Of a DNA stretch of 64,000 nt, positions 12,973-59,030 are shown piece by piece. The stretch spans positions 124,001 to 188,000 of the forward strand of contig NZ_FNJO01000003.1 in assembly GCF_900104095.1 (NCBI RefSeq), in the 5' to 3' direction. Numbering within the stretch: position 1 is the first letter of the stretch; each line of letters starts with the position of its first letter. The translations under genes and the position numbers were made by a program. Under the pieces are notes generated by a model that ran no database searches, was not told where the DNA came from, and was given only the letters and a program-made list of their open reading frames with translations. The stretch is from Ralstonia sp. 25mfcol4.1. Lineage in GTDB: Bacteria; Pseudomonadota; Gammaproteobacteria; Burkholderiales; Burkholderiaceae.

Positions 12973-13007
12973 GTGTCAACCGGCCAGCGCGCGAGGCCGG
13001 TTGACAC
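12973..13007. promoter_or_regulatory. Perfect 13-bp inverted repeat in the tig-clpP gap
   Basis: GTGTCAACCGGCC (12973-12985) / GGCCGGTTGACAC (12995-13007), 9-nt loop, no U-run on either strand. It ends 27 bp before the clpP start. This is a stable mRNA hairpin or an operator, not a standard terminator. Confidence 0.55.
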
Positions 13008-13051
13008 GGACCGCCGCCGCGTCAACGCGCGGCATCCGGTCTTGCCCGACC

Positions 13052-14401
13052 TCAGGCTTGTGCGGGCGCGGCGGTGAGTTCCTCGAACGACACCGACTTG
13101 TCCGTAACCTTGGCCTTGTCGCACACGAAATTTACCACGTTGTTTTCGAGCACGTAGGCTTCCATCTCGGCCAGGCGCTGCTGGTCACCGTAGTACCAGC
13201 GCATGACTTCCTTCGGGTCTTCGTAGCTCTTCGCGAAGTCCTCGATCTCGGCCTTGACCTGTTCCGGCTTGGCTTCCAGGCCGTTGGCCTTGACGATCTC
13301 GGCCAGGATCAGGCCCAGCTTCACGCGGCGTTCGGCCTGCTGGGCGAACATCTCGGCCGGAATCGGCATGTCCTTGGCGTTCGGCATGCCACGCTGCTCG
13401 AGGTCACGACGAGCCATTTCCACCAGGCGTTCCTGATCCTGTTCGATCAGGGCCTTCGGCACGTCCAGCTCGCTGACCTTCAGCAGGGCTTCCATGACTT
13501 CGTCCTTCAGCATGGAATGCGTGCGGCGCTTGACTTCGCGCTCCAGGTTTTCGCGGATGTCGGCGCGCATCTTTTCGACGCTGCCGTCAGCGATGCCGAG
13601 CGACTTTGCGAACGCATCGTCCACTTCCGGCATGTGCGCCCACTCGACCTTCTTCAGCGTGATCGTGAACTCGGCGGTCTTGCCGGCCACTTCCTTGCCG
13701 TGGTAGTCCTCGGGGAACGTCAGCGGGAACGTCTTGCTCTCGCCTTCCTTCAGGCCCAGCGTGGCCTGCTCGAACTCGGGCAGCATGCGGCCTTCGCCCA
13801 GCACGTACACGAAGTCTTCGGCCTTGCCGCCGGCGAATTCCACGCCGTCGATCTTGCCGACGAAGTCGATCGTCACGCGATCGCCGTTCTTGGCATCCAC
13901 TTCGGCGCCACCGTCGCCATGGGCGCCGGCTTCACCGCGGTGGTGGTAGTGCACACGCTGCTTGCGCAGGATGTCGACGGTCTTGTCGATCTCGGCGTCG
14001 CCGATCTCGGTCTTGGTGCGGGTTACTTCGGCCGATGCCAGCTCGCCGATCTTGACTTCCGGATACACCTCGAAGGTGGCTTCGAAAGCCAGTTCGTCGT
14101 CGGCAACGCCTTCGGTCTTGATGTCGAACTTCGGCTGACCGGCCACCTTCACGTCCTGGGCCTGGGTGATGTCGAAGAACTTGCGGGCGGCCTTGTCGAA
14201 GCGCACTTCGAATTCCACCTGCTGGCCGTATTGCTTCTCGACCATCTTCATCGGCACCTTGCCCGGACGGAAACCGGACATTTTCACGGTCTTCGACAGA
14301 CGTACCAGGCGTTCCTGCGTTTCCTTCTGCACTTCGGCCTTGGGAATAGCCAGGGTCACCTTGCGGTCCAGCTTGCCGAGGTTTTCAATGACGTTCGACA
14401 T
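13052..14401 (-). CDS. tig: Trigger factor
   Basis: 449 codons. The N-terminal ribosome-binding domain has the [17 protein letters not shown] signature. A central FKBP-type PPIase domain follows ([40 protein letters not shown]), then a long helical C-terminal chaperone domain. A histidine/glycine-rich insertion ([19 protein letters not shown]) precedes the FKBP domain. It folds nascent chains at the ribosome exit tunnel and heads the tig-clpP-clpX-lon block. Confidence 0.97.
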
Positions 14402-21253: not shown

Positions 21254-21392
21254 ATTGCGCGACGACAAAGGGGGGAAATCACCCGCCGGCCTTTGCTGGG
21301 CTTGGCTTCGCGGCACTAAGTGCCACCGATTGGCGTGGAGTGCAAATGTTGCGATTACGCAACAAAGAGGTAGGTTGGTGCGAGGGAGGGGA
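21254..21392. repeat. attL-side direct repeat (displaced 3' end of tRNA-Leu plus flank)
   Basis: 139 nt nearly identical to 58822-58960, with five mismatches counted by eye. It ends with the last 17 nt of tRNA-Leu (minus strand) and includes about 122 nt of tRNA-downstream flank. A 16-bp palindrome GTTGCGATTACGCAAC is at 21348-21363. Confidence 0.9.
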
Positions 21393-21530
21393 AGCGTGAG
21401 CGCTGGGAAATCAGCGCGTTAGCAGACTTCCGGGGGAATCCTGGGGACTTGTAGCTCGCCCGATTCTGTTATGTGAGGGGCTCTCCCCACGGGGACGCGC
21501 CAAGTTTACAGGCCGTTGCACTCGGCCATA

Positions 21531-21550
21531 TACTGTATAAATATACAGTA
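21531..21550. promoter_or_regulatory. LexA/SOS-type box 1
   Basis: TACTGTATAAATATACAGTA: two perfect 9-bp arms around AA, matching CTGT-N8-ACAG. It overlaps a possible -10 (TATAAA) and ends 14 bp before ATG 21565. A promoter at this spot would be blocked by LexA and opened by DNA damage. Confidence 0.75.
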
Positions 21551-21564
21551 CTCAACAGTGCATC

Positions 21565-21867
21565 ATGGGTAACAACAGACTGGCTCGGACCTGCCAAATC
21601 CCCACAAACGCTGCCGCGCCTGGCGACATCGTCCCCACCGAAAACGGAATCCTTGGCCGAGTGCCTGGCGTTTATGTTGCGCAAGCGGTGAACTCACTCC
21701 CTCCTCCTACGGCGATCGGGCCCGGCGCCGCGACGGTCGTGGTGGAGGCGGGAGAGCTGGGCCTCGTGCATGTTTCGGTCGAGCGCCGGCGGGCCAAGCA
21801 CGGCCGGCACTCGCATTACTTCTGGACGGCCGTTCGGGCCGAGCCATTGGATGATCCGACCCGGTGA
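21565..21867 (+). CDS. Small prophage protein under a LexA-type box
   Basis: 100 codons from ATG 21565. No recognised family. The central part (GIGPGAATVVVEAGELGLVHVSVERRRAKHGRHSHYF) suggests a short beta-rich fold with a basic stretch. It overlaps the next ORF by GTGA (21864-21867). In coliphage 186 the LexA-controlled antirepressor gene tum occupies a similar genome end, so an induction role is possible, but no sequence similarity to Tum is seen. Confidence 0.6.
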   Translation: MGNNRLARTCQIPTNAAAPGDIVPTENGILGRVPGVYVAQAVNSLPPPTAIGPGAATVVVEAGELGLVHVSVERRRAKHGRHSHYFWTAVRAEPLDDPTR

Positions 21868-22034
21868 GCGTGGCAGTGCGTGAGCTAACCGGCGGAATCG
21901 AGACGAAAGACGGCCGTCGCTTCTCTCTGCTTGATCTGTCCAAGCTGCATAAGCACTTTGCCTCACCACTGTATATACATACAGCCAATTTCCGCCGGAT
22001 GGTGAAAGTCGGTGGGGGCACCGGAAAAAGGTAA
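21864..22034 (+). CDS. Short ORF with weak KilA-N/antirepressor-like segment
   Basis: 56 codons from GTG 21864, translationally coupled to the preceding ORF (GTGA). It reads through ETKDGRRFSLLDLSKLHKHF, which loosely resembles the DGRRFSLNDLHKAAG start of phage KilA-N domains. The TAA stop is inside the first GGTAACC of the repeat array, so the ORF may be a truncated remnant. A second LexA-type box lies within it. Confidence 0.4.
   Translation: MSVAVRELTGGIETKDGRRFSLLDLSKLHKHFASPLYIHTANFRRMVKVGGGTGKR
21969..21984. promoter_or_regulatory. LexA/SOS-type box 2
   Basis: CTGTATATACATACAG, i.e. CTGT-N8-ACAG with perfect 6-bp arms. It lies inside the short ORF 21864-22034 and 37 bp before the GGTAAC array. 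Confidence 0.6.
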
Positions 22035-22315
22035 CCTTGGTAACCACGTCTGGAGAATTGCCCGCAAACCGTTGTGGTGCAAGGCTTAGCGGGTTTCGAG
22101 CAAAAGGTAACATTGGGGTAACTTTAAGGTAACCAGATTACCTTTTTCATAGGTAACACCTTCCAAATCACCCCCTCAATAAAATCAATGACTTAGCGAG
22201 AGGTTACCTTTTAGGTTACCCAAGATTACCTTCCAAAGGTAACCACCGCTTTCCTTATAAATCATGTAGTTAGACGGCATTTTCGGGCTTAGTTACCGAG
22301 GTTACCTTTTTCCGG
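22021..22315. repeat. GGTAACC/GGTTACC iteron-like array bounded by 24-bp inverted repeats
   Basis: Thirteen GGTAAC-type sites in 295 bp, starting at 22030, 22039, 22106, 22117, 22128, 22137, 22152, 22202, 22214, 22225, 22238, 22292 and 22300. Left copies read mostly GGTAACC and right copies mostly GGTTACC, often beside A or T runs. The outer ends form an inverted repeat, 22021-22044 against 22292-22315, 23 of 24 matching (CCGGAAAAAGGTAACCT at the left). Irregular spacing excludes CRISPR. A replication-origin, repressor-binding or small-element function is possible. Confidence 0.85.
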
Positions 22316-22672
22316 ACCCTGCCCTAGTTCATAGGATTGAAGCGGCATCGCCCCGGAGCGATGTACTGGAGGCTTGTTGCGACGATAGGCGCCGAGAATT
22401 GAAAATTTCACTGCTGTCGTACGTCGTCCGCTGGCGCCAAGACTGGCGGGTGGAAGCGGCGCCGCACGCGTGCATCAAAACTGACCTACGAGGCGCGCCG
22501 GCGAGGCGGGGTCGAAGTGGCGCGCTGAAGGATGACATATCGGTCGTCGGGTAGTCCTAGTCACATTACCCTCACAGACTTCCAGATGCGGCAAAATTTG
22601 AATGTCTAGTGCTCCATTCGGAGGGGATGCCGCGTGCAGCACGTCCATTTCTATCAGCATGAGGCAGCTTGA
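22316..22672. other. Intergenic stretch between the array and the nuclease gene
   Basis: 357 bp with no convincing gene. Short minus-strand ORFs here have no RBS or family look. No clear promoter, but the nuclease gene must be read from here or from upstream. Confidence 0.5.
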
Positions 22673-24724
22673 ATGCGAACCGACGAGTTCATTGATCTTG
22701 TACGACACGCCTGGCCTACAGAGAGCAATAGCGACCCAAGCACGGACGTGCTCCAGGTCTCGACCCCTCCCTATTCGCGCGAGCGTAGCCAGAAAATCAG
22801 GAACTGCTTCCCGCATGACACAAACGCAATCCGACAACAAATAGCAAGGATACGAAAAGAACTTATTTTGCGATCAGTATGCAGTGAAGAGGACGTGCAA
22901 CGTCCTTTAATCGTTGCTCACGAGTTAATCCTCAATTATTTGAGGGGTGAACCTGAAGGCGAAATTCAGGGGCACGTGGAGTGGCGAAAGGCACTCGAGC
23001 TAATGTGTAGTGCTCCGCGCTCACCGCATTTCTCCAACTATGAATCGGTTCTAGGCAGCTGCGAGGATGAGCGAGCCTTGGCTACGGCAGTGCAATATCT
23101 TAAGAAAGTCGGATACGATATCAATTTCGCAGAAGGCGAGCTAAAAATATCCGACGACGAAGAAAGGAAACTTGCAACTGACATCGACTCGCTCGTAGCA
23201 ACTGTGGGCGGACGCGTAGTATTGGACTGTGTATTCCATCAAATTAACCATCTATTCGACCCCAGATTTCAACGATACCGCTTCGTAAGAAAGACAAGCC
23301 AATGGAATCACCAAGTAAACCCCCAGCAGCCTTTTGGATATTTGATTAACCTTGCCGTAAAGCATTGGCATCTCGAACCAAAAGAAACAAATCTGAATCT
23401 ACTAGATAAAATTCAACACCTTTCCACTGCCTACAGCGCATTGCATGAGGTCCAACCATACAACCCATACTCGTCCCTGTTCGTTGACACCCAAAATATA
23501 ATTAATTTTCTTCAGCGATCGGTGCGCTACGACTCATTATTCAGCATCTTTCAACTCAGAGTTACTGACGCGAAAATTTTATATAAAGGCTTGCTGCGAA
23601 AGCATATTTCATCACGCACCACCATTCGAGGGATTGGCGTGGCCGAAGTAATTCGATTGACGGACTTCATCATTGATCGACATTGCCGCGGAAATTTCAA
23701 GATTCCTTTCAGCGCGAAATCGATAGCGCAAGAAAGAAAAATGAGGGAATCAACTGTACGGAAGATAATTGACACAGTGCTCGCTCATGAGCCACATGCC
23801 GCAAACAAGGATTACCTTCTTGCCGCTAATGTAGACTTGGTCAATTTTCAAGACAGACCTCTACTGAAACAAAAGAATGGGACCTATCAGATCATTTCCC
23901 CTTCAATTTGCGGGCCCGCCTTCGTAACGTCTCTTCTCCAATTTGCCAGCGGGGCCGACAGTAATTTTTACGCCGACCTCGGGCGCCAAGCCGAGCACCT
24001 ACTCCGGGAAAAACTGACGGCTCACGGCATAACTTGGCATACTGGAGAGTACTCTTCCGTATATGAAGGAAGATTGGAGAAAGGAGAGTGCGACATCGTA
24101 ATCGAAACCAAGGACGTGGTGTTTTTCTTAGAGACAAAGAACAAGACTCTTACAAATTTGGCTCGCAGCGGCAGCGATCTTCACTTATTCACGGATCTCG
24201 CTCTTGGTGCAGTGCATGCGGCAAGCCAAATCATTCGGCACGAACTATTACTAAAATCCAACGGCACATTGACGCTTAAAGATGGTGATTTAAATCATAC
24301 AGTACACCTCAACAACCGCCATGTTGAGAGGATATCTATCAGCCTACCGGAATTTGGCGCACTCCAAGACCGGATAATTTTGGACCATCTGTTGAACGCC
24401 TTTTTGCGAGCTGACTTTTCAACCAACAGCGGAGTAATGAAAAAGCAGTTTTCGCAAGCAAACAAAATTGCACAAAGTCTGAGGAATTCTTGCGCGGGAC
24501 TTGCGAAACTGGGCGCCGACACCACGAGAATGTTCTTCTCAAACTGGCATTTGAGCTTTGCTCAATTATGTGTTCTGCTGGACAGAGTGAAATCGAATGA
24601 GGATTTCAAATCGGAGCTATGGCGAACGAGAAATATTGTGACGGGCACGCATGATTGGTATCACGATCAGAGCCACATGATCGGTCTTTATGAAAACGTG
24701 ACAGCCAGTACAGATGCTGGTTAG
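22673..24724 (+). CDS. Large cargo protein with PD-(D/E)XK nuclease-like motif (candidate antiphage factor)
   Basis: 683 codons, visibly AT-richer than its neighbours, so recently acquired. Start ATG 22673 has GAGG about 9 bp upstream. Around residues 450-485 the run VYEGRLEKGECDIVIETKDVVFFLETKNKT gives the Asp and Glu-X-Lys spacing of PD-(D/E)XK nucleases, with hydrophobic strands before each. The N-terminal two-thirds is mainly alpha-helical and unrecognised. It sits next to portal gene Q, at the genome end equivalent to the P2 old/tin defence locus. Function inferred only from motif and place. Confidence 0.75.
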   Translation: MRTDEFIDLVRHAWPTESNSDPSTDVLQVSTPPYSRERSQKIRNCFPHDTNAIRQQIARIRKELILRSVCSEEDVQRPLIVAHELILNYLRGEPEGEIQGHVEWRKALELMCSAPRSPHFSNYESVLGSCEDERALATAVQYLKKVGYDINFAEGELKISDDEERKLATDIDSLVATVGGRVVLDCVFHQINHLFDPRFQRYRFVRKTSQWNHQVNPQQPFGYLINLAVKHWHLEPKETNLNLLDKIQHLSTAYSALHEVQPYNPYSSLFVDTQNIINFLQRSVRYDSLFSIFQLRVTDAKILYKGLLRKHISSRTTIRGIGVAEVIRLTDFIIDRHCRGNFKIPFSAKSIAQERKMRESTVRKIIDTVLAHEPHAANKDYLLAANVDLVNFQDRPLLKQKNGTYQIISPSICGPAFVTSLLQFASGADSNFYADLGRQAEHLLREKLTAHGITWHTGEYSSVYEGRLEKGECDIVIETKDVVFFLETKNKTLTNLARSGSDLHLFTDLALGAVHAASQIIRHELLLKSNGTLTLKDGDLNHTVHLNNRHVERISISLPEFGALQDRIILDHLLNAFLRADFSTNSGVMKKQFSQANKIAQSLRNSCAGLAKLGADTTRMFFSNWHLSFAQLCVLLDRVKSNEDFKSELWRTRNIVTGTHDWYHDQSHMIGLYENVTASTDAG

Positions 24725-24775: not shown

Positions 24776-25804
24776 CTAAACAGGCAGATCGTTCAACCCA
24801 TACCCCCCAAACCTAACCACCCCCTCCCCAACCCACTCATTCACCTCCGCCAGCCGCTCCTGCAGCGGCTTCACCTCATTCCTCGCAAAAACCAAAGCCG
24901 CTTTTTCAGCATCCCCAAATCCCCCAGTATTAGCCGGAATAATCCCCATCAACTGCGGCGGCACCCGATGCGCGGCCAGCTGGTCGTCCCGCGTCACGTT
25001 CTTGATATTCCAGAACTCATCCTTGGCAGCCACCTCGGAAACAGGAATCAACTGAATCCCGTCCTTTTTGCCCGAAGGCGCATACATAAACAGGTTCCGG
25101 AAATTTCCCGGTCCTTTGCTGTTCTTCAGCGCCTCGCGCAACGCGTCCACGTCTTCCTGCTTCTGCGCCGCGTCCGTCATGTACAGGATGAACCCGGCAT
25201 GGCTGCCGTTCTTGTAATACCGCCGCCGGAACAGCGTCGCTGATTCGTTCAGCCAGGTCGCGTTCAGCGCCGACAGGTATTCGGGCAGCCCATACACCTC
25301 CTGGTTGATATCTGGCTCCATCAGGTGGAACACGCTACCAGATTTGAACCGATGCACGTCCTGCATGTTTTGCACGAAGAAGTAGCTGTCCAGATCCAGC
25401 CCCCGCCGCATGTACTTTGCCAGGGCCGGCTCCAGCGCCACCGGCCGCCCCAGCACGTTGTCGCGCCGCTCCAGGTATCCATTCCCGAACACCAGAAAAT
25501 CCTGCACCCACCGCGCGAACGCCGACCGCGACAGCAGCTTGTGCGGGATGAACGTCGACACCAGGATGTTCCGCTTCACGTAAATCGGCGAGCTGTTATG
25601 CACCGCCGCGCGAAACGTGCGCGCCAGCCCCTCCCAGGGCATCGGCGGCTCGAACCAGTCGCCCACGCGCAGGCATTCCACGTAGTCCAGCAGCTCGCGC
25701 CGATCCAGCACGGCCACCGGGTCGCCAAACGTGAACGCCTCCAACGCCCCGGCGCCAGCGCGCGCCGCCGTGCCACCCTTCCGACGAAATTTCCCCATGC
25801 TCAT
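24776..25804 (-). CDS. Q: Phage portal protein (P2 Q-like)
   Basis: 342 codons, the usual size for P2 Q / PBSX-type portals. Start ATG 25804 (MSMGKFRRKGG) overlaps the terminase stop as ATGA; the longer frame upstream is antisense terminase. Motifs include PPMPWEGLARTFRAAVHNSSPIYVKRNIL, DFLVFGNGYLERRDN and the C-terminal HRVPPQLMGIIPANTGGFGDAEKA. It forms the dodecameric portal for DNA entry into the capsid. Confidence 0.95.
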   Translation of the reverse strand: MSMGKFRRKGGTAARAGAGALEAFTFGDPVAVLDRRELLDYVECLRVGDWFEPPMPWEGLARTFRAAVHNSSPIYVKRNILVSTFIPHKLLSRSAFARWVQDFLVFGNGYLERRDNVLGRPVALEPALAKYMRRGLDLDSYFFVQNMQDVHRFKSGSVFHLMEPDINQEVYGLPEYLSALNATWLNESATLFRRRYYKNGSHAGFILYMTDAAQKQEDVDALREALKNSKGPGNFRNLFMYAPSGKKDGIQLIPVSEVAAKDEFWNIKNVTRDDQLAAHRVPPQLMGIIPANTGGFGDAEKAALVFARNEVKPLQERLAEVNEWVGEGVVRFGGYGLNDLPV

Positions 25805-27582
25805 GACATCTCCATAATGCTGGTGTTCGTTGTGGTCACACCCTCCAACGGCTCGTGCGCGATGGCGTGCATACAGGCCCAGGCCAGATCCGCGTGGCTG
25901 GTTTCCTCCGACCGGCCGGCCTGATAGGTGACCCGCCCCCCGGCAGCCGTGGTGGTCTTCCGGATAGACATGAACGACGCGGCGAAGTCCGTCCACCCGG
26001 CATCGAATTCCAGCCGCCCCTTGCTGATCACGTCGTGCGCCTTCAGCACCAGGCCGGTCTTCACGTCCACGGAATAGGTAAAGCCCCGCGCATCGGGCCG
26101 GAACTTACTGACCAGCTGGAACACGGCATCGCCAATGCCCGTCCGGTCGATGCCGATGTACGCCACGCTGTACCGCTCGCACACCCGCTTGATCGCCGCC
26201 GCCTGCTCCTCGTAGTCGATGCCGCGGAACTGGTGCTTCTCCAGCACCCGGAACTTGCCGCCGGCCACCAGCGGCGGCGCCACCACCACAAGCGCCGCGC
26301 TGTCGCCGCCGCCACCGTTCGGGTCATAGCCCACCCACACATCCCGGTTGCCAAACGGTCGCGGCGACCAGTGCCGGAAGTCCTCCCACACCTCCCAGCT
26401 ATCCACCGTGCAGCGCATCAGCATCGACAGCGGAAACACCGACGCCGTATCGTCGATAAACCCGCACATCAGCAGGTTCTCGAAGTCGGCATCGCTGTAT
26501 TCCAGGCGCAGCTGCTCGATGTCGAACAGGTTGCAACCGCCGGCAATCGCATCCTCCACGGTCACAATCTGCCGCCACTGCCCGTCCGCGCAACGCCGGC
26601 CGCCCTTCAGGTTCGCGTGGCTCACATCCACGCGGATGTGGTCTTGCTTCTTCCGCCCCCGATTGAACAGCGCCCCGGACCAGAAGGGGTACGCCTCATG
26701 CGCCAGGCTCGAAGGCGTCGAGAAATATGTCTGCCGCCATTTCGAATGGATGGCCATCCCCGACGCCACCTTGCGCAGCTCCTGAAAACGCTGGATCCAG
26801 AAATACTCGTCCAGGTACAGGTTGCCGTGGTAGCTCTGCGCCGTGCGCGCGTTGGTGCCCAGGAAGTACAGCGTGGCGCCGTTCGGCAGCACCATCGGGT
26901 CACCCTTCAGGTCCACCCCGACGGCAACCCTGGCGAACTGCATGATGTACTGCTTGAAGACGTGCGCCTGCGCCTTGCTGGCCGACAGAAAGATCTGGTT
27001 GCGCCCCGTGGTCAGCGCATCGACCAGCGCCTCGCGCGCGAAGTACCAGGTCGCGCCGATCTGCCGGCTCTTCAGGATGTTGCGGATCCGCTCGGCCAGG
27101 CCTGCCTCGTACCAGAGTCGCTGATACGCGAACATCGAATCCATGAACGCGTCCACCAGCTCGCCCTGCTGCGCCTCGCTAATCGCGTTGCGCTCCACCT
27201 TGCGCCGAGCGCCCTTGTTCCGGTTGGCCACCTTGGGATTCAGGTCGACCTCGTTGCCGCTGGCCTCATAACGCCGCACACGCGCAAGCCGCTCGATCTG
27301 CCGGCCCAGCAGGTCGATTTCCTTGTAGTCCTTGCCCTCCTTCTGGTCCTTGGCCACCAGCAGCGCCATCCGCGCCTCCAGGCTCGCGCCCACGCGGTCC
27401 ACCGTGTCCGCCTTGTGCCACGCCTCACGGCGCTTCCAGCTATGCACGGTCGCGGCCTTGATGCCGAGCATCTCGGCGATGCGCGCGACGCGGTATCCCT
27501 GCCAGTAGAGCCCGCGCGCAATGCGGCGCGGGTCCATCTGCGGGTCGAATTGATGCGTGGAAATGGGCGGCAGCGTAGTCAT
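25801..27582 (-). CDS. P: Terminase large subunit, ATPase (P2 P-like)
   Basis: 593 codons. The N-terminal helix-turn-helix segment is RVARIAEMLGIKAATVHSWKRREAW. The atypical Walker A is KSRQIGATWYFAREALV. Walker B/catalytic region is NLYLDEYFWIQRFQEL, and the C-terminal nuclease-like region has VGYDPNGGGGDSAALVVVAPP. It packages DNA into the prohead together with M. A late-activator-type dyad lies 44 bp upstream of its start. Confidence 0.96.
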   Translation of the reverse strand: MTTLPPISTHQFDPQMDPRRIARGLYWQGYRVARIAEMLGIKAATVHSWKRREAWHKADTVDRVGASLEARMALLVAKDQKEGKDYKEIDLLGRQIERLARVRRYEASGNEVDLNPKVANRNKGARRKVERNAISEAQQGELVDAFMDSMFAYQRLWYEAGLAERIRNILKSRQIGATWYFAREALVDALTTGRNQIFLSASKAQAHVFKQYIMQFARVAVGVDLKGDPMVLPNGATLYFLGTNARTAQSYHGNLYLDEYFWIQRFQELRKVASGMAIHSKWRQTYFSTPSSLAHEAYPFWSGALFNRGRKKQDHIRVDVSHANLKGGRRCADGQWRQIVTVEDAIAGGCNLFDIEQLRLEYSDADFENLLMCGFIDDTASVFPLSMLMRCTVDSWEVWEDFRHWSPRPFGNRDVWVGYDPNGGGGDSAALVVVAPPLVAGGKFRVLEKHQFRGIDYEEQAAAIKRVCERYSVAYIGIDRTGIGDAVFQLVSKFRPDARGFTYSVDVKTGLVLKAHDVISKGRLEFDAGWTDFAASFMSIRKTTTAAGGRVTYQAGRSEETSHADLAWACMHAIAHEPLEGVTTTNTSIMEMS

Positions 27583-47760: not shown

Positions 47761-48078
47761 TCAAATCTCGAAGAGCGCAGCCAGGTCCGAAAAGCAATCT
47801 GCGATGCGGATGGCGCAATCTGGTGCCATGCCGATCATTGGCAGCATGAAAACGGCGCCGGCATGATCGAAAGCCAACAGCTCTCCGCCGCCGTCGCCCC
47901 CAAAGGCTAGAAATCCTGGTGCATAGACCTCGATTTCGACATCAACGTTGTTGCCGCGTATTTCATCTAGGGGCCATAGCGCGACGTACCCGGGCCTAGT
48001 TCCGTCCGCCGTAAATCCTTCGAAGACTCCATGGGCAGCCAGATAATCACTGTACTGACGCGGGACTGAAGGCAGCAT
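47761..48078 (-). CDS. SMI1/KNR4 (SUKH) family immunity protein
   Basis: 105 codons. SUKH pattern: GYVALWPLDEIRGNNVDVEIEVYAPGFLAFGGDGGGELLAFD followed by AGAVFMLPMIGMAP. Family members neutralise toxins of contact-dependent and secreted polymorphic systems in the cytosol. No toxin gene is visible nearby. Confidence 0.82.
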   Translation of the reverse strand: MLPSVPRQYSDYLAAHGVFEGFTADGTRPGYVALWPLDEIRGNNVDVEIEVYAPGFLAFGGDGGGELLAFDHAGAVFMLPMIGMAPDCAIRIADCFSDLAALFEI

Positions 48079-48168
48079 GTATTCGCTCTCGGTTGGGGGT
48101 GACTTACGGAGACTCTAGCAGCATTCGGGATTTCCTAACGAGCATCGACCAATGTCCGCTCATGGCCG

Positions 48169-48516
48169 TTACAGGCTATCAATGACGTTCTTCAGCAGTT
48201 CACCATCGAACCAGACATCCTCATAGTCCGGCGCAAGCAATACACGCCATCCCGGCGGTAGTGCCAAGTAAGGGACGATATTCGGACAGCGCTCGATCAA
48301 GTGGGCGACATGAAGCGGCTGATAGAAGTTAGCGTCCGGCGAGTACTCGCCACCGTAAATATACCAACCGCACGTACCGTTATCCGGGGATAGCCGAACC
48401 GCGTGAAGCGGCACATCTTCAAGGGATCCAAGCGAGATTCCTACCTTCTGGCTCGCCTCAGGCGGCATGTATTCCGTACCGAATCGCTGGCAAACATTTC
48501 TTTGATCATTGGACAT
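48169..48516 (-). CDS. Imm33/DUF2185-like immunity-type protein
   Basis: 115 codons from MSNDQRNVCQRFGTEYMPPEA; longer frame to 48705 has an unlikely N-terminus. GTCGWYIYGGEYSPDANFYQPLHVAHLIERCPNIVPYLALPPGWRVLLAPDYEDVWFD resembles the Imm33-type immunity domain. First of the leftward immunity cluster. Confidence 0.68.
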   Translation of the reverse strand: MSNDQRNVCQRFGTEYMPPEASQKVGISLGSLEDVPLHAVRLSPDNGTCGWYIYGGEYSPDANFYQPLHVAHLIERCPNIVPYLALPPGWRVLLAPDYEDVWFDGELLKNVIDSL

Positions 48517-48723
48517 GGTCGCGCGGAATATGCTCAACTCGTCGTGATTGTCGCCGATTCCGACTGCGTGGTCGACCGACCGCTTGTGGCCGGTCTCGGC
48601 CCACCGGGTGACGGCGCCGTCATGGCCGGCGGGCTCTGACCGACCCGAAGCGGACGGACGGATATCTCGAAAGCAGACGTCCGACGTAATATCGTAACCC
48701 CTCATTGTTCGAGCTTTCGCATC

Positions 48724-52546: not shown

Positions 52547-52981
52547 TCAGTTCTTTCGCTTCTTTCCCATGTTGATGGTGACCGGCGCTGACGTGTGCAA
52601 ATTGCCTTCGATCAGTTGCCCCACGTCGCCCTTGACGTGTACCCGTTGCTCGGGCTCTGGCTGCATGCCGCTGAGCAGGGCCATGACGCCGGCGCGTGCT
52701 CGCGTATTGAGCCGACGGTACCCGGACACCAGGGCGGTTTCTTCAACCGACAGGGGTTCGAATGTTCGCTCGCCAACCAGGATGTACATCACGTCGAAGC
52801 TCTCCCGCGCAATCGCGGCCAGGTAGGCAGCGTCCGGAACGCGCTCAGACTTCTCATAGAACACCTGCGTTTTTGGCGAGACGCCGCCCATCGCTGCGAG
52901 CGCGGCCTGCGTGAGCCCCGCCCGCTTCCGTTCTTCGTATAGGCGTTTTCCTAAACCTTCCTTTTCTTCCCTTGAGATCAT
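52547..52981 (-). CDS. XRE-family phage repressor (C-like)
   Basis: 144 codons from MISREEKEGLGKRL; an upstream extension to 53134 is less likely. HTH: KRLYEERKRAGLTQAALAAMGGVSPKTQVFYEKSERVPD. No LexA-type peptidase domain, so induction must not be RecA-cleavage of this protein. C-terminus carries HVKGDVGQLIEGN...VTINMGKKRK. Divergent from the RHH/ogr operon, with a 70-bp operator gap. Confidence 0.88.
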   Translation of the reverse strand: MISREEKEGLGKRLYEERKRAGLTQAALAAMGGVSPKTQVFYEKSERVPDAAYLAAIARESFDVMYILVGERTFEPLSVEETALVSGYRRLNTRARAGVMALLSGMQPEPEQRVHVKGDVGQLIEGNLHTSAPVTINMGKKRKN

Positions 52982-53051
52982 TGAAAAACTTTCCTCTTGG
53001 TAAGACACTGCGTGTTGTGCATCGCTAACTTTCACACAGAGTATATCCGCC

Positions 53052-53276
53052 ATGTCTCGTGCGAAAACGCCGGTAAGTCGCGCCCCGCGTGGGGTGCTGA
53101 AGGACAAGCCAATCAGCATGCGTCTGCTCTCCAAGGAGCGCGAGCAGCTGGAGCAGTTGGCGCTGGTCGAGAACCGCTCGCTGTCGAGCCTGGCGCGGTT
53201 GATCCTGCTGGAAGGGCTGTCTGCCTACGAGTGCAAACCGGCACGCACGATCCCACTGCGGAGCAACGCGAGATGA
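53052..53276 (+). CDS. Ribbon-helix-helix regulator (Cox/antirepressor position)
   Basis: 74 codons. DKPISMRLLSKEREQLEQLALVENRSLSSLARLILLEGL is an Arc/MetJ-type RHH. Divergent from the repressor, first gene of the early operon, so a good candidate for the opposing switch protein. ATGA overlap with the Ogr-like gene. Confidence 0.8.
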   Translation: MSRAKTPVSRAPRGVLKDKPISMRLLSKEREQLEQLALVENRSLSSLARLILLEGLSAYECKPARTIPLRSNAR

Positions 53277-53602: not shown

Positions 53603-56311
53603 ATGGACCCATCCCTGCACTCCGATGTCACCAGCCGCCTGCTGCGCGACTACGCGTTCAAGCAGAAACAGTCCGGTGCGAAGCTGGAAGCCGGCCACTG
53701 CCCGTCCTGCGGCAAGAAGGCGCTGTGGGCGTTCGGCGATGCGCCGTGGGTGATCCGCTGCAATCGGCTGAACAACTGCGGCGCCGAGCTGCACATCAAG
53801 GATCTGTACCCGGATCTTTTTGACAGCTGGTCGGACCGCTTTCGCCCGACACCTGAGAACCCGAAGGCGTCGGCCGATGCGTATATGCGCGACGGCCGCG
53901 GCTTTGATCTGGACAAGGTGCGCGACTGGTACACCCAGGAGAGCTATTACAGCCACGAACTCAAGATTGGCAGCGCCACGGTGCGTTTTGCGCTGGCGCT
54001 CGGCGTCTATTGGGAACGGATCATCGACCAGGCACACCGCTTCGGTGACCGTAAGGCGACGTTCCATGGCAGCTATGGGGGCATGTGGTGGCAGCCGCCG
54101 GGGGCTACCCATTGCGGCGCAGAAGAACTGTGGATCGTCGAGGGCGTGTTCGATGCCATCGCCCTGCTCCACCACGGCATCACCGCAGCGTCGGCCCTGT
54201 CCTGCACGAACTACCCCGCGCAGGCGTTGCGCGGCCTGGCCGAACAGTGCGCGGCGAACGGCAATCCTCGGCCAAGGCTGGTGTGGGCGCTGGATGCCGA
54301 CAAGGCCGGCATGCGGTACGCCATGCAATGGCTCAAGCGCAGCCGCGAGGAAGGCTGGGAAGCCTCCATCGCGCTGCCGAAGCAGAAAGGCAAGAAAAAG
54401 CTCGACTGGAACGACCTGCACCAGCTGGACAAGCTGACCGAGCCGGACATTGCCGAATACCGCTACCTGGGCGACCTGCTGGCCGCACCCACGGCGGCCG
54501 AGAAGGCCCGGCTGATCTACGGCCGCACCAGCATGAGCCAGTTCGCGTTCGACTTCGAGAGCCGGCTCTACTGGTTCAAGCTGGACCTGGACGCGCTGAC
54601 ACGCGAGATGGACGCCGTGCGCAGCGCGCACGGCGACATGGATGAAACCGAGATCCGCGACGAGGCGATGCTCAAGGCCGGCGTGGTCACGAACATCGCG
54701 ACGTGTCTGCCCACCGTCCTTTACTACCAGGCGAACGCTGCGACCGACGAAGCCTGGTACTACTTCCGCGTTGCCTTCCCGCACGATGCCGCGCCGATCA
54801 GGAACACATTCACCAGCGCGCAGGTGGCGTCGGCCACGGAGTTCAAGAAGCGCCTGCTGGCCGTGGCGCCGGGGGCGTTCTACACCGGATCGAACGGGCA
54901 ACTGGACGCCTACCTGAAGGAGCAGATGCACCGCATCAAGAGCGTGCAGACGATCAACTATGTCGGGTACACGAGGGAGAGCGGCTGCTACGTGTACTCG
55001 GACGTGGCGGTGAAGGACGGCAAGCTTTACACCCTCAACGACGAGGACTTCTTCGACATCGGCCGGCTGTCGATCAAGAGCATTCTCGGCTCGGCCGGCC
55101 TGTCGCTTAACACGGACCTGAAGGCGTTTCGGCACGACTGGCTGGACACCCTGTGGCGCGCGTTCGGCGCGAAGGCCATCGTCGCGCTGGCGTTCTGGCT
55201 GGGGTCGCTGTTTGTGGAGCAGATCCGCGAAGGCGACGGCATCAAGCAAAAGAGCTACCCGTTTCTGGAAGTGGTGGGCGAACCCGGCGCCGGCAAATCG
55301 ACGCTGATCGAGTTCCTGTGGAAGCTGTGTGGGCGGCGTGACTACGAGGGCTTCGACCCGTCCAAGGCGTCGATTGCGGCGCGGGCGCGCAATTTCTCGC
55401 AGGTGTCGAACCTGCCGGTCGTGATGATCGAGGCCGACCGTGGTGACGATGGTGCGAAGGTCAAGGGTTTCGACTGGAACGAACTGAAGACCGCCTACAA
55501 CGGCCGCAGCTCACGCTCGCGCGGCGTGAAGAATTCCGGCAACGAGACAGACGAATCGCCCTTCCGTGGCGCCGTGGTGATCAGCCAGAACGCCGACGTG
55601 TGCGCCAGCGACGCCATCCTGCAGCGGATCGTCCACCTGTACTTCGACCGCTCGGGCCAGAACGCCGACACCTTTGCCGCCGCCCGCGCGCTGGAGCAGA
55701 TGCCGGTGGAGGACGTGTCGGGCTTTCTGCTGTCCGCCATCCTGAAGGAAAGCGAGATCCTGGCGCGCTTTGTCGAGCGCATGCCGCACTACCAGGACAT
55801 GCTGATCCGCAACCCGGACGTGAAGAACCAGCGCCTGGCGAAGAACCACGCACAGATCATGGCGATGGTCGACTGCCTGCCCATTGTGTTGCCGCTGCCG
55901 GCTGAGTACCGCGACGCCGCACAGCGCCAGTTGGTGCAGATGGCCGTGGAGCGCCAGCAAGCCATCGGCGCAGACCATCCGCTGGTACAGGACTTTTGGG
56001 AACTGTACGACCACCTCGAATCCGCCGCCGACGACCAGGCCGTGCTGAACCACGCCCGAGGCAATGGCGTCATCGCCATCAGCCTGCGCCATTTCGAACA
56101 GGTGGCAAACGACCGCCGCCTGAACCTTCCCCCGCTGCCCGAACTGAAACGCGTGCTGAAGACATCCCGGCACCGCAAGTTCATTGATCTGCGGGTCGTC
56201 AACAGCGCAATCAACGCGCGATTCAACGCCGAGCACATCCACCAGCCGAAACGCCCTGCCACTGTGAAGTGCTGGGTGTTCGAGGATCGGCCGGCGAACA
56301 CAGGAGCGTGA
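53603..56311 (+). CDS. Toprim primase-helicase (replication protein)
   Basis: 902 codons. N-terminal zinc finger (HCPSCGKKALWAF...RCNRLNNCG), Toprim core (EELWIVEGVFDAIAL, then VWALDADKAGMRYAM), and a C-terminal helicase/ATPase with Walker A VVGEPGAGKSTL near residue 560. It initiates and primes phage replication, the role held by P4 alpha or P2 A. Primase-helicases of the P4 type bind iterons, which makes the GGTAAC array a possible target. Confidence 0.92.
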   Translation: MDPSLHSDVTSRLLRDYAFKQKQSGAKLEAGHCPSCGKKALWAFGDAPWVIRCNRLNNCGAELHIKDLYPDLFDSWSDRFRPTPENPKASADAYMRDGRGFDLDKVRDWYTQESYYSHELKIGSATVRFALALGVYWERIIDQAHRFGDRKATFHGSYGGMWWQPPGATHCGAEELWIVEGVFDAIALLHHGITAASALSCTNYPAQALRGLAEQCAANGNPRPRLVWALDADKAGMRYAMQWLKRSREEGWEASIALPKQKGKKKLDWNDLHQLDKLTEPDIAEYRYLGDLLAAPTAAEKARLIYGRTSMSQFAFDFESRLYWFKLDLDALTREMDAVRSAHGDMDETEIRDEAMLKAGVVTNIATCLPTVLYYQANAATDEAWYYFRVAFPHDAAPIRNTFTSAQVASATEFKKRLLAVAPGAFYTGSNGQLDAYLKEQMHRIKSVQTINYVGYTRESGCYVYSDVAVKDGKLYTLNDEDFFDIGRLSIKSILGSAGLSLNTDLKAFRHDWLDTLWRAFGAKAIVALAFWLGSLFVEQIREGDGIKQKSYPFLEVVGEPGAGKSTLIEFLWKLCGRRDYEGFDPSKASIAARARNFSQVSNLPVVMIEADRGDDGAKVKGFDWNELKTAYNGRSSRSRGVKNSGNETDESPFRGAVVISQNADVCASDAILQRIVHLYFDRSGQNADTFAAARALEQMPVEDVSGFLLSAILKESEILARFVERMPHYQDMLIRNPDVKNQRLAKNHAQIMAMVDCLPIVLPLPAEYRDAAQRQLVQMAVERQQAIGADHPLVQDFWELYDHLESAADDQAVLNHARGNGVIAISLRHFEQVANDRRLNLPPLPELKRVLKTSRHRKFIDLRVVNSAINARFNAEHIHQPKRPATVKCWVFEDRPANTGA

Positions 56312-57750: not shown

Positions 57751-58758
57751 TCAGCCCAGGCGCTGCGCGATGCTGGACGCCGACTCGTTGTAGTAAGTCA
57801 TCAGTTCCTGCAGGTTGGTATGGCCTGTCATGCGGGCCAGGTCCAGCGGCTGCAGCTTCTTCGCCAGGCGGGTGATGGCTTCGTGCCGTGTGTCGTGGAA
57901 CGTCAGGTCGACGATGCAGGCCTTGTTTCTGGCTTTGCGGAACAGCGCGTCGCGGCTGGCTGGTACCAGGCTGAACAGCGGCGCCCCTTCGTCCACCGCC
58001 GGCAGCATCCGCAGCAGCTCGATGGCGCGGCCCGACAAGGGTACCTCTCTCGCCAGGCCGTTTTTGGTCAGCGGCAGCCGCGCCACCCGCCGCTCAAAAT
58101 CCACTGTGAAGCTGGTCAGGCCGATTATCTCGCCTGACCGCATGGCCGTCTCCAGCGCAAACAGGAAAGCCACGGCGACGCGCTGGGAAGCCCGCACGAC
58201 CGGCATGCCTTCGATGTAGCCCAGGGCGATCAGTACCGCGTCGATCTCCGCCTGGGGAATCAGCCGCTCGCGCGGCGGGTTGTCGGGCGGCCGGCGCACC
58301 TCCTTCATCGGGTCGGTCACCAGCCAGCCCCATTCGGTGCGCGCCACCTGCAGGGCGTGCGACAGCAGGGACATTTCGCGGGACACAGACGACCCGGCCA
58401 CGCCATCGCGCAGCCGCGCGTCGCGCCAGGCGGCGATGTGGGCGGGCCGCAGGTTGACCAGGAGGATGTCGCGGAACGGGCTGCCCTCGATCTCCTTGCG
58501 GCCGATGAGGTCCAGGCGGAGCTTTTCCCACCGGGCGCCACGCTTTGTCGGGCTGACTTTGCGCTGGTAGTCGTCCAGGACGTCGCCGATGGTGTGTGTT
58601 TTGCTGCCCTTACCGCCTTGCAGCGACCGGAGTTCGGACTTGCGCCGATCCGCCCATTCCTGGGCAAGTGCCTTATTCGGAAAACACCTGCTCTCGCGAT
58701 GGCCCTTCACGTCGATCTGAACGCGCCATCCAGTCCCTGTCTTTTGCAACGATGCCAT
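57751..58758 (-). CDS. int: Tyrosine recombinase / phage integrase
   Basis: 335 codons from MASLQKTGTGWRVQID; longer frame to 58836 is doubtful. Catalytic residues: Arg in ALETAMRSGEI, His-x-x-Arg in FHDTRHEA, His in GHTNLQELM and Tyr in MTYYNES. N-terminal arm-binding domain. It lies beside attR and the intact tRNA-Leu, the usual arrangement for tRNA-targeting integrases. Confidence 0.95.
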   Translation of the reverse strand: MASLQKTGTGWRVQIDVKGHRESRCFPNKALAQEWADRRKSELRSLQGGKGSKTHTIGDVLDDYQRKVSPTKRGARWEKLRLDLIGRKEIEGSPFRDILLVNLRPAHIAAWRDARLRDGVAGSSVSREMSLLSHALQVARTEWGWLVTDPMKEVRRPPDNPPRERLIPQAEIDAVLIALGYIEGMPVVRASQRVAVAFLFALETAMRSGEIIGLTSFTVDFERRVARLPLTKNGLAREVPLSGRAIELLRMLPAVDEGAPLFSLVPASRDALFRKARNKACIVDLTFHDTRHEAITRLAKKLQPLDLARMTGHTNLQELMTYYNESASSIAQRLG

Positions 58759-58821
58759 GGGGGCTCCGTGGGGGATTTCTGGGGGCGCGCGGAAATTATA
58801 GAGTGGCGCGGAGGGGCACCA

Positions 58822-58960
58822 ATTGCGCGACGACAAAGGGGGGAAATCACCCGCCGGCCTTTGCGGGGCTTGGCTTCGCGGCGTTAAGTGCCACCGATTG
58901 GCGTGGAGTGTAAATGTTGCGATTACGCAACAAAAAGGTAGGTTGGTGCGAGGGAGGGGA
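58822..58960. repeat. attR-side direct repeat including the tRNA-Leu 3' end
   Basis: 139 nt matching 21254-21392 with five mismatches counted by eye. Includes the last 17 nt of tRNA-Leu and its 16-bp palindrome at 58916-58931. Lies between int and the rest of the tRNA. Confidence 0.9.
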
Positions 58961-59030
58961 CTCGAACCCCTACACCATTGCTGGCGTCAGGACCTAAACC
59001 TGGTGCGTCTACCAATTTCGCCACCCTCGC
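58944..59030 (-). tRNA. tRNA-Leu (anticodon UAG), prophage target
   Basis: 87 nt with encoded CCA. Minus strand starts GCGAGGGTGGCGAAATTGG. The anticodon loop TTTAGGT gives UAG. Long variable arm, T-arm GGGGTTCGAGTCCCC. Its 3' 17 nt lie in the att repeat, so integration restored a full gene. Confidence 0.97.

Follow-up and report, generated by a model that had tools for sequence, protein, structure and literature searches.

A dyad-symmetric iteron array in a P2-like prophage

The block at positions 22021–22315 of the 64,000-nucleotide stretch analysed here (the window) is, as judged from sequence comparisons, highly likely to be the replication origin of a P2-like prophage, bound by the prophage's own primase-helicase. 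The array sits inside this prophage, which extends from ~21.3 to 59.0 kb and also carries tail genes, at ~0.63 kb from attL. The features of the prophage are as follows.

21254–21392, no strand: left attachment repeat, 96% identical over 139 bp with 58822–58960
21565–21867, plus strand: ORF of 100 amino acids, also found in the closest relative (L028)
22021–22315, no strand: dyad-symmetric iteron array, the proposed phage replication origin, with 13 GGTAAC-type sites and 24-bp terminal inverted repeats
22500–22518, plus strand: P2-type cos word beginning GGCGAGGCGGGG, 185 bp from the array
24776–25996, minus strand: P2-type portal protein (Q), the first late gene on the array side
53603–56311, plus strand: primase-helicase of family phrog_1139, with cysteines C33–C59, toprim at residues 175–272 and Walker A near 556–567
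57751–58836, minus strand: tyrosine integrase
58822–58960, no strand: right attachment repeat, overlapping the 3′ end of tRNA-Leu 58944–59030 (minus strand)

The cos word was matched to the P2 cos sequence given in a passage of PMC3931495, and the conserved cysteines of the primase are Zn ribbon-like. In the lysogen, the primase gene and the array lie at opposite prophage ends; in the excised circle ~3.3 kb, containing int and attP, separates them. The prophage further encodes an HTH protein (52547–53134) and a sub-threshold RHH-like ORF (53052–53276). An AT-rich ORF of 683 amino acids is located between cos and the portal gene (22673–24724), and its only family matches, to NERD nuclease and RuvA_N, were sub-threshold. 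SUKH-1-like and Imm33-like ORFs, both of immunity-type families, are found between the tail and early genes (47761–48705).

A sequence-only reading of this DNA had described 13 GGTAAC-type sites in 295 bp with 24-bp terminal inverted repeats, and our recount agreed. Sites are located at 22030, 22039, 22106, 22117, 22128, 22152 and 22238 on the plus strand and at 22137, 22203, 22215, 22225, 22292 and 22301 on the minus strand, and 23 of 24 bases of the termini (22021–22044 and 22292–22315) pair in inverted orientation (96% complementary). That the array lies far beyond chance, as had been claimed, was borne out by two tests. Exact GGTWACC words number 10 in the window, seven of them within the block, against 2.4 expected for the whole window, and none of 100 shuffles reached 10; the top 7-mer cluster of the prophage gave a −log10P of 19.1 versus 5.3 to 6.8 in 12 Markov resamples. 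The G+C content is 0.44 in the block versus 0.63 in the window. The switch from mostly GGTAACC on the left to mostly GGTTACC on the right, also noticed before, corresponds to a mirror symmetry about 22168, in which 10 of the 13 sites form five pairs (tolerance of 1 bp), and only 1 of 5,000 random placements equalled this pairing. The sites at 22137, 22152 and 22238 have no mirror partner. The array centre (22111–22290) is 57 to 63% A+T versus 37% for the window. A mechanically called minus-strand ORF (21694–22113) overlaps the left end of the array and shows no sign of being a gene. Known phage DNA gave no match to 21500–22700 at an E value of 1e-5, and GC skew along the prophage was uninformative. 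The elements of the array and its left flank are listed below.

21533–21548, no strand: second LexA box CTGTATAAATATACAG, upstream of the ORF at 21565–21867
21969–21984, no strand: LexA box CTGTATATACATACAG, 51 bp left of the array, start to start
22030–22044, plus strand: left outer tandem iteron pair, 9 bp apart, mirror of 22292–22306
22061–22093, no strand: imperfect palindrome CCCGC..GCGGG, separating outer and inner iterons and discernible in many aligned arrays
22106–22133, plus strand: left inner iteron triplet (22106, 22117 and 22128), mirror of 22225, 22215 and 22203
22183–22195, plus strand: IHF-type site AATCAATGACTTA, a perfect match to WATCAANNNNTTR
22203–22230, minus strand: right inner iteron triplet
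22260–22272, plus strand: second IHF-like site AATCATGTAGTTA, with one mismatch to the consensus and 77 bp from the first
22292–22306, minus strand: right outer tandem iteron pair

IHF-type sites were called with the IHF consensus WATCAANNNNTTR and LexA boxes with the LexA motif CTGT-N8-ACAG. Perfect IHF-type sites recur in related arrays: 37 were found in 28 arrays (in 23 of the 28), versus a mean of 0.5 expected and a maximum of 3 in 100 resamples. Another 30 arrays, including four loci with bad coordinates, held 20 such sites in 16 arrays (mean of 0.7 expected). Two perfect sites spaced by 76 to 77 bp are present in 13 of the first 22 arrays and in 4 of the 30 further ones, one of which repeats G039. 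LexA boxes occur in 8 of 10 Cupriavidus arrays and in 14 of the first 22, but not in G018 and G007, and in the eight Cupriavidus loci the box starts 51 bp left of the array, with a 1-bp shift in one.

Copies and relatives of the array

A search for such clusters in related prophages and elsewhere in the genome had been proposed as a check. The whole genome contains two copies of the array, both in P2-like prophages beside the portal gene, and arrays are present in primase-bearing relatives. Ten full-length or near-full-length arrays were recovered by DNA similarity from nine of 60 genus genomes (G000 has two), and the portal region of the window was found in the 18 to 20 kb around each of the nine non-window copies. 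A clustered-word scan revealed similar-sized arrays in Pseudomonas phage Dobby, Stenotrophomonas phage Smp131, Halomonas phage 4908, PfPro and ESSI2, as well as an array in phi3 and a weaker one in 2F_1. Of 21 phage records with a relative of the window primase, eight were fetched and seven of these have an array (the clusters of 2F_1 and ESSI2 being the weakest); none was found in the eighth, ZY1, a record that starts and stops inside genes.

In an alignment of 26 arrays, iteron positions are fixed in most rows, and the outer sites span ~277 bp in most arrays. The iteron itself varies with the primase: it is GGTAACC in the window type, GGTAATT in Dobby, TGTGAYG in ESSI2, CTGACAG in PfPro and CCGGAACA in phi3. 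The CGGAAAA/TTTTCCG ends are kept even in ESSI2.

Six partial matches were rejected as arrays. Those in G011, G043 and G051 consist of the palindrome with no clustered iterons around it, and those in G008, G017 and G031 of an IHF-type site between TGTTACA words, apparently at a shared chromosomal locus. The latter is a similar non-coding locus in all three (L039, L041 and L040, at ~8.85 to 9.25 kb). Primase-bearing records also yielded a clustered inverted repeat, TACCGTCA (L113, 13175–13407; L161, 15159–15446; L168, 15373–15561), which is perhaps the origin of another element. Next to the array on contig C27 of G096 (L281, 4427–8017) lie an ATPase/nuclease-like and a UvrD-like ORF. We presume that these resemble the Gabija pair, which suggests a defence-gene slot at that locus.

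The array is linked to the phrog_1139 primase

A sequence-only profile, R1, was built from the alignment of 26 arrays. The primase search gave 80 loci, of which 48 were used for the R1 test after 32 had been left out (short contigs, genus repeats and two Cupriavidus). Among the 48 is G086, whose genome is identical with that of the R1 training row G039. R1 matched 48 of 48 primase-bearing genomes at an E value of ≤1e-3, the weakest best E value being 5e-7. Array and primase share a contig in 44 of them, and the distances, read by eye from coordinates, were 16 to 38 kb in 40 and 0.4 to 1.3 kb in four (G092, G121, G124 and G126). In G091, G096, G111 and G114 the two are on separate contigs. A distance of 16 to 38 kb is expected, because integration at attP places array and primase at opposite ends of the prophage.

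A family sample of 200 genomes was also searched, with primase positives defined by an E value of ≤1e-30; the array and primase searches are assumed to have covered the same 200, as the listed handles agree. The array was found in 13 of 13 primase-positive genomes (partial in G261) and an array match in 5 of 187 primase-negative ones, namely, G016, G035, G192, G160 and G194. The G160 match is partial, on an 8-kb contig, and that in G194 (E value of 5e-4) is likely due to chance. In the genus sample of 60 genomes, eight loci with a full-length primase and a ninth divided between two contigs were detected, each with an array 28 to 32 kb away on the same contig; a further two genomes, G016 and G035, carry the array but lack a phrog_1139 primase. 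Weaker phrog_1139 matches without an R1 array were seen in 10 genus genomes. Four of these 10 were examined, and all four carry clustered repeats of other kinds: in G036, G048 and G010 (whose primase match is in pieces) the repeats follow directly downstream of the match, and in G058 they are ~6 kb off. A different array directly downstream of the primase gene is a feature of distant relatives, comprising phi3, these three genomes and Providencia/Xenorhabdus. In the Providencia elements such arrays are at 12992–13263 of L213 and at 12992–13263 and 13386–13646 of L220, the latter two being tandem arrays of the CGTTACA and GGTTACA types.

Several arrays lack a phrog_1139 primase nearby. G192 has a full-length array and another primase, G016, G035 and contig C62 of G089 hold prophage remnants, and G160 is a fragment; the idea that such orphans belong to satellites was rejected for G089:C62 and G016, which are prophage remnants. 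Near the arrays on G252:C2 and G096:C15, no phage genes of the window prophage's type were matched. At the former (L273, 11022–12808), a full-length array lies next to a tRNA-Asn and to a different integrase of the tyrosine type; in the stretches covered, the phage genes of the window were not matched and a clear second att repeat was not found. Either a remnant or a satellite that borrows the origin may be present at this locus.

Among viral records with the primase, 26 were taken from 39 loci, and 12 have an array (including G085). No array was found in the other 14, 13 of which (all except G070) were inspected further, not always over the whole contig. The records of G060, G076 and G078 stop within ~1 kb of the portal gene and that of G064 stops after 2 kb; G068 and G072 extend 4.2 and 3.5 kb past it, and both are cut ~345 bp after the primase. 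The portal was not matched in seven of the array-less records.

Iterons and primase change together in a sister family

Two natural experiments bear on the relationship between iteron and primase. G192, of the Pandoraea group, has kept a GGTAACC array that shares 88% identity with an array found elsewhere in the group, and its primase is of the CHC2 type, 76% identical to that of phage KS5. A second array, with eight ACTCGTGGA sites in 316 bp, is located between this CHC2 primase and the integrase. We read this as a new primase that arrived with its own array, the old array being left behind.

The second case concerns phages AP3, KS5 and KL3, in which the arrays occupy the gap between primase and integrase (L047, L048 and L154). 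KL3 and KS5 have RCTSGTGG-type or ACTSGTGGC-type iterons beside a CHC2 primase. AP3 has a primase of the same family, 95% identical, and the same array block with the iteron-core T changed: all 12 TGG/CCA iteron-core words common to KL3 and KS5 carry the identical T-to-G (A-to-C) change to GGG/CCC in AP3. Of the substitutions unique to the AP3 primase, 13 of 22 fall in residues 801–931 (the last 131), 5 of these 13 in the last seven residues, versus 1 of 25 for KS5 and 2 of 23 for KL3. This C-terminal clustering is significant against KS5 and KL3 together (3 of 48; Fisher P = 3.6e-6, with 4e-5 and 7e-5 at two other cuts). These sequence data point to the C-terminal region of the primase as the part that reads the iterons. 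The co-variation belongs to the CHC2 sister family, not to phrog_1139, and supports the class rather than the window array directly. AP3, KS5, KL3 and FLC10 serve as controls for the GGTAAC type only. FLC10 itself holds five ATTCGGACA words (L155, 931–1124), a possible origin or plasmid iteron set, and a tandem repeat at 18.4 kb that overlaps an annotated ORF.

For the window primase (53603–56311), we propose that the C terminus is likewise the iteron reader. Its alignment with P4 alpha by hhalign (90%, E value of 1.6e-6) covers residues 148–311 only, and hhalign detected no likeness outside the toprim part. DUF5906 was weakly matched in 16 of 20 phrog_1139 members, and sequence searches of the PDB returned one chance-level match and otherwise weak DnaG toprim matches.

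Alternative explanations for the array

The array could instead be a packaging site, bound by the terminase near cos as an analogue of cosB at which DNA packaging starts. Of the first 22 arrays, 10 indeed have a P2-type cos word at a distance of ~250 bp or less, as do 10 of the 30 further ones, the window included. However, the arrays of ESSI2, PfPro and phi3 are 8.2, 8.5 and 3.1 kb from the portal gene and nearer to int or primase, which is an indirect argument, as no cos was located in these three. AP3, KS5 and KL3, with portals 61 to 62% identical, have no GGTAAC-type cluster among their top ones and carry other arrays beside the primase. The iterons also follow the primase. The packaging reading is disfavoured, and we regard it as very unlikely.

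A second possibility, raised by the sequence-only reading, is a regulator-binding array, that is, operators through which a phage repressor/XRE or RHH protein silences the region. Multiple symmetric sites and a nearby LexA box would suit such a role, and the HTH protein and RHH-like ORF of the prophage would be candidate binders. Yet no conserved gene beside the array was apparent in the eight Cupriavidus loci inspected, and the presence of the array follows the primase, so this option too is disfavoured and very unlikely.

Iteron arrays also serve partition, and a centromere or incompatibility array rather than an origin was considered; phage FLC10 has a ParA-like gene. The prophage is integrated, though, its array is linked to the primase, and no ParA/ParB family was seen among the scanned ORFs, which make up part of those of the prophage. 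A partition site is therefore disfavoured as well, with a slim chance at best. The remaining idea of the sequence-only reading, a MITE or other small mobile repeat, is suggested by the 24-bp terminal inverted repeats, the ~300-bp length and the orphan copy beside another integrase in G252, but it is excluded by a copy number of two with no scatter unlinked to prophages, the very test set for it, and its inverted repeats are the ends of a larger dyad of sites.

The first option of the sequence-only reading had been a cis-acting replication site for the primase-helicase, on the model of the P4 alpha iterons. This fits best of its three options: presence tracks the primase, the P4 crr is similar in size, mixed orientation and tandem spacing, and the iterons of the sibling phages change with the primase C terminus.

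Comparison with known replication origins

As an analogy, P4 crr and the origins of PICIs provide the closest working models for the array. The P4 crr measures 300 bp and is located between attP and the primase gene; its ten 8-bp repeats run in both directions, and some are in tandem with a spacing of 9 bp. Like it, the window array is a non-coding block of short, mixed-orientation iterons close to attP and primase, and in both cases the element that carries the array also encodes a cognate toprim primase linked to it (apart from the arrays without primase). There are also clear differences: P4 has two sites, crr and ori, and the window prophage one GGTAAC cluster; the repeat unit differs, being TGTTCACC/GGTGAACA in P4; P4 crr/ori gave no match to the IHF-type consensus, in contrast to the window array; and the homology to P4 alpha is confined to residues 148–311 of the window primase rather than full length. 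Because of the toprim-only alignment and the single site cluster, we did not file the array as a P4 replicon.

PICI origins are described, in part of PMC6092414, as two iteron sets around an AT-rich region, and the window array likewise has two iteron sets flanking an AT-rich centre. In the pri-rep-ori arrangement of SaPIs/PICIs the origin lies directly 3′ of pri-rep, whereas the window array is ~3.3 kb off, across int and attP; placement directly 3′ of the primase is found in phi3, G036, G048 and Providencia. Unlike SaPI/PICI origins, the array belongs to a full P2-like phage and often has IHF-type sites at fixed spacing.

Phage P2 has its origin in gene A and replicates by the rolling-circle mode. 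The window prophage shares the virion type and the cos word with P2, but the replication gene found in it is another one, a primase. Iteron plasmid origins that use IHF combine iterons, an AT-rich segment and an IHF bend. The window array has iterons, an AT-rich segment and an IHF-type site, at which a bend would form, but its proposed initiator is a primase-helicase and not a RepA-type protein. The portion of PMC3091744 available to us states that the P2-like phages of the BCC share with P2 almost only structural, not replication, genes. PMC2647930, in the part available, deals with a plasmid-type island and bears on iterons in general only.

No description of the array, or of an origin for these phages, was found in the titles and opening abstract lines of the open-licence literature. 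Term searches of the accessible text of the Smp131 paper (PMC3931495) and the paper on BCC P2-like phages (PMC3091744) found no phage origin, and in that text both name a primase-like or CHC2 protein.

Proposed mechanism and implications

We propose that the toprim primase-helicase binds the iterons, probably via its C-terminal region. The two half-arrays, with five mirror-paired iterons each, would flank the AT-rich centre with its IHF-type site, and an IHF bend would bring them together. The AT-rich centre would then melt, and theta-type replication would be initiated by the helicase/primase once the prophage is induced. The array is very probably a well-defined new variant of an iteron origin served by a primase-helicase.

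We also considered a bolder model, which is rather unlikely, that the Cupriavidus array is an SOS-gated origin. LexA at the fixed box would silence the origin directly, and DNA damage alone would license initiation. Because the array lies ~0.6 kb inside attL, an origin that fired before excision would drive a replication fork into the host DNA and could contribute to lateral transduction. A precedent for such spill-over is the rep-dependent in situ amplification of a Halomonas prophage whose replication module is of another kind, reported in an excerpt of PMC11131426. In wider terms, the primase C terminus and the iterons would form an evolvable origin-specificity code across Peduoviridae.

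Many P2-like phages are devoid of the P2 replication genes, and where their replication starts is not described in the parts of the literature found. With an origin of this kind, the fixed architecture would allow origins to be located from sequence in the prophages of many Proteobacteria, and the natural variants would allow the DNA-binding part of the primase to be predicted. In situ prophage replication and its effect on the adjoining host DNA would become directly testable.
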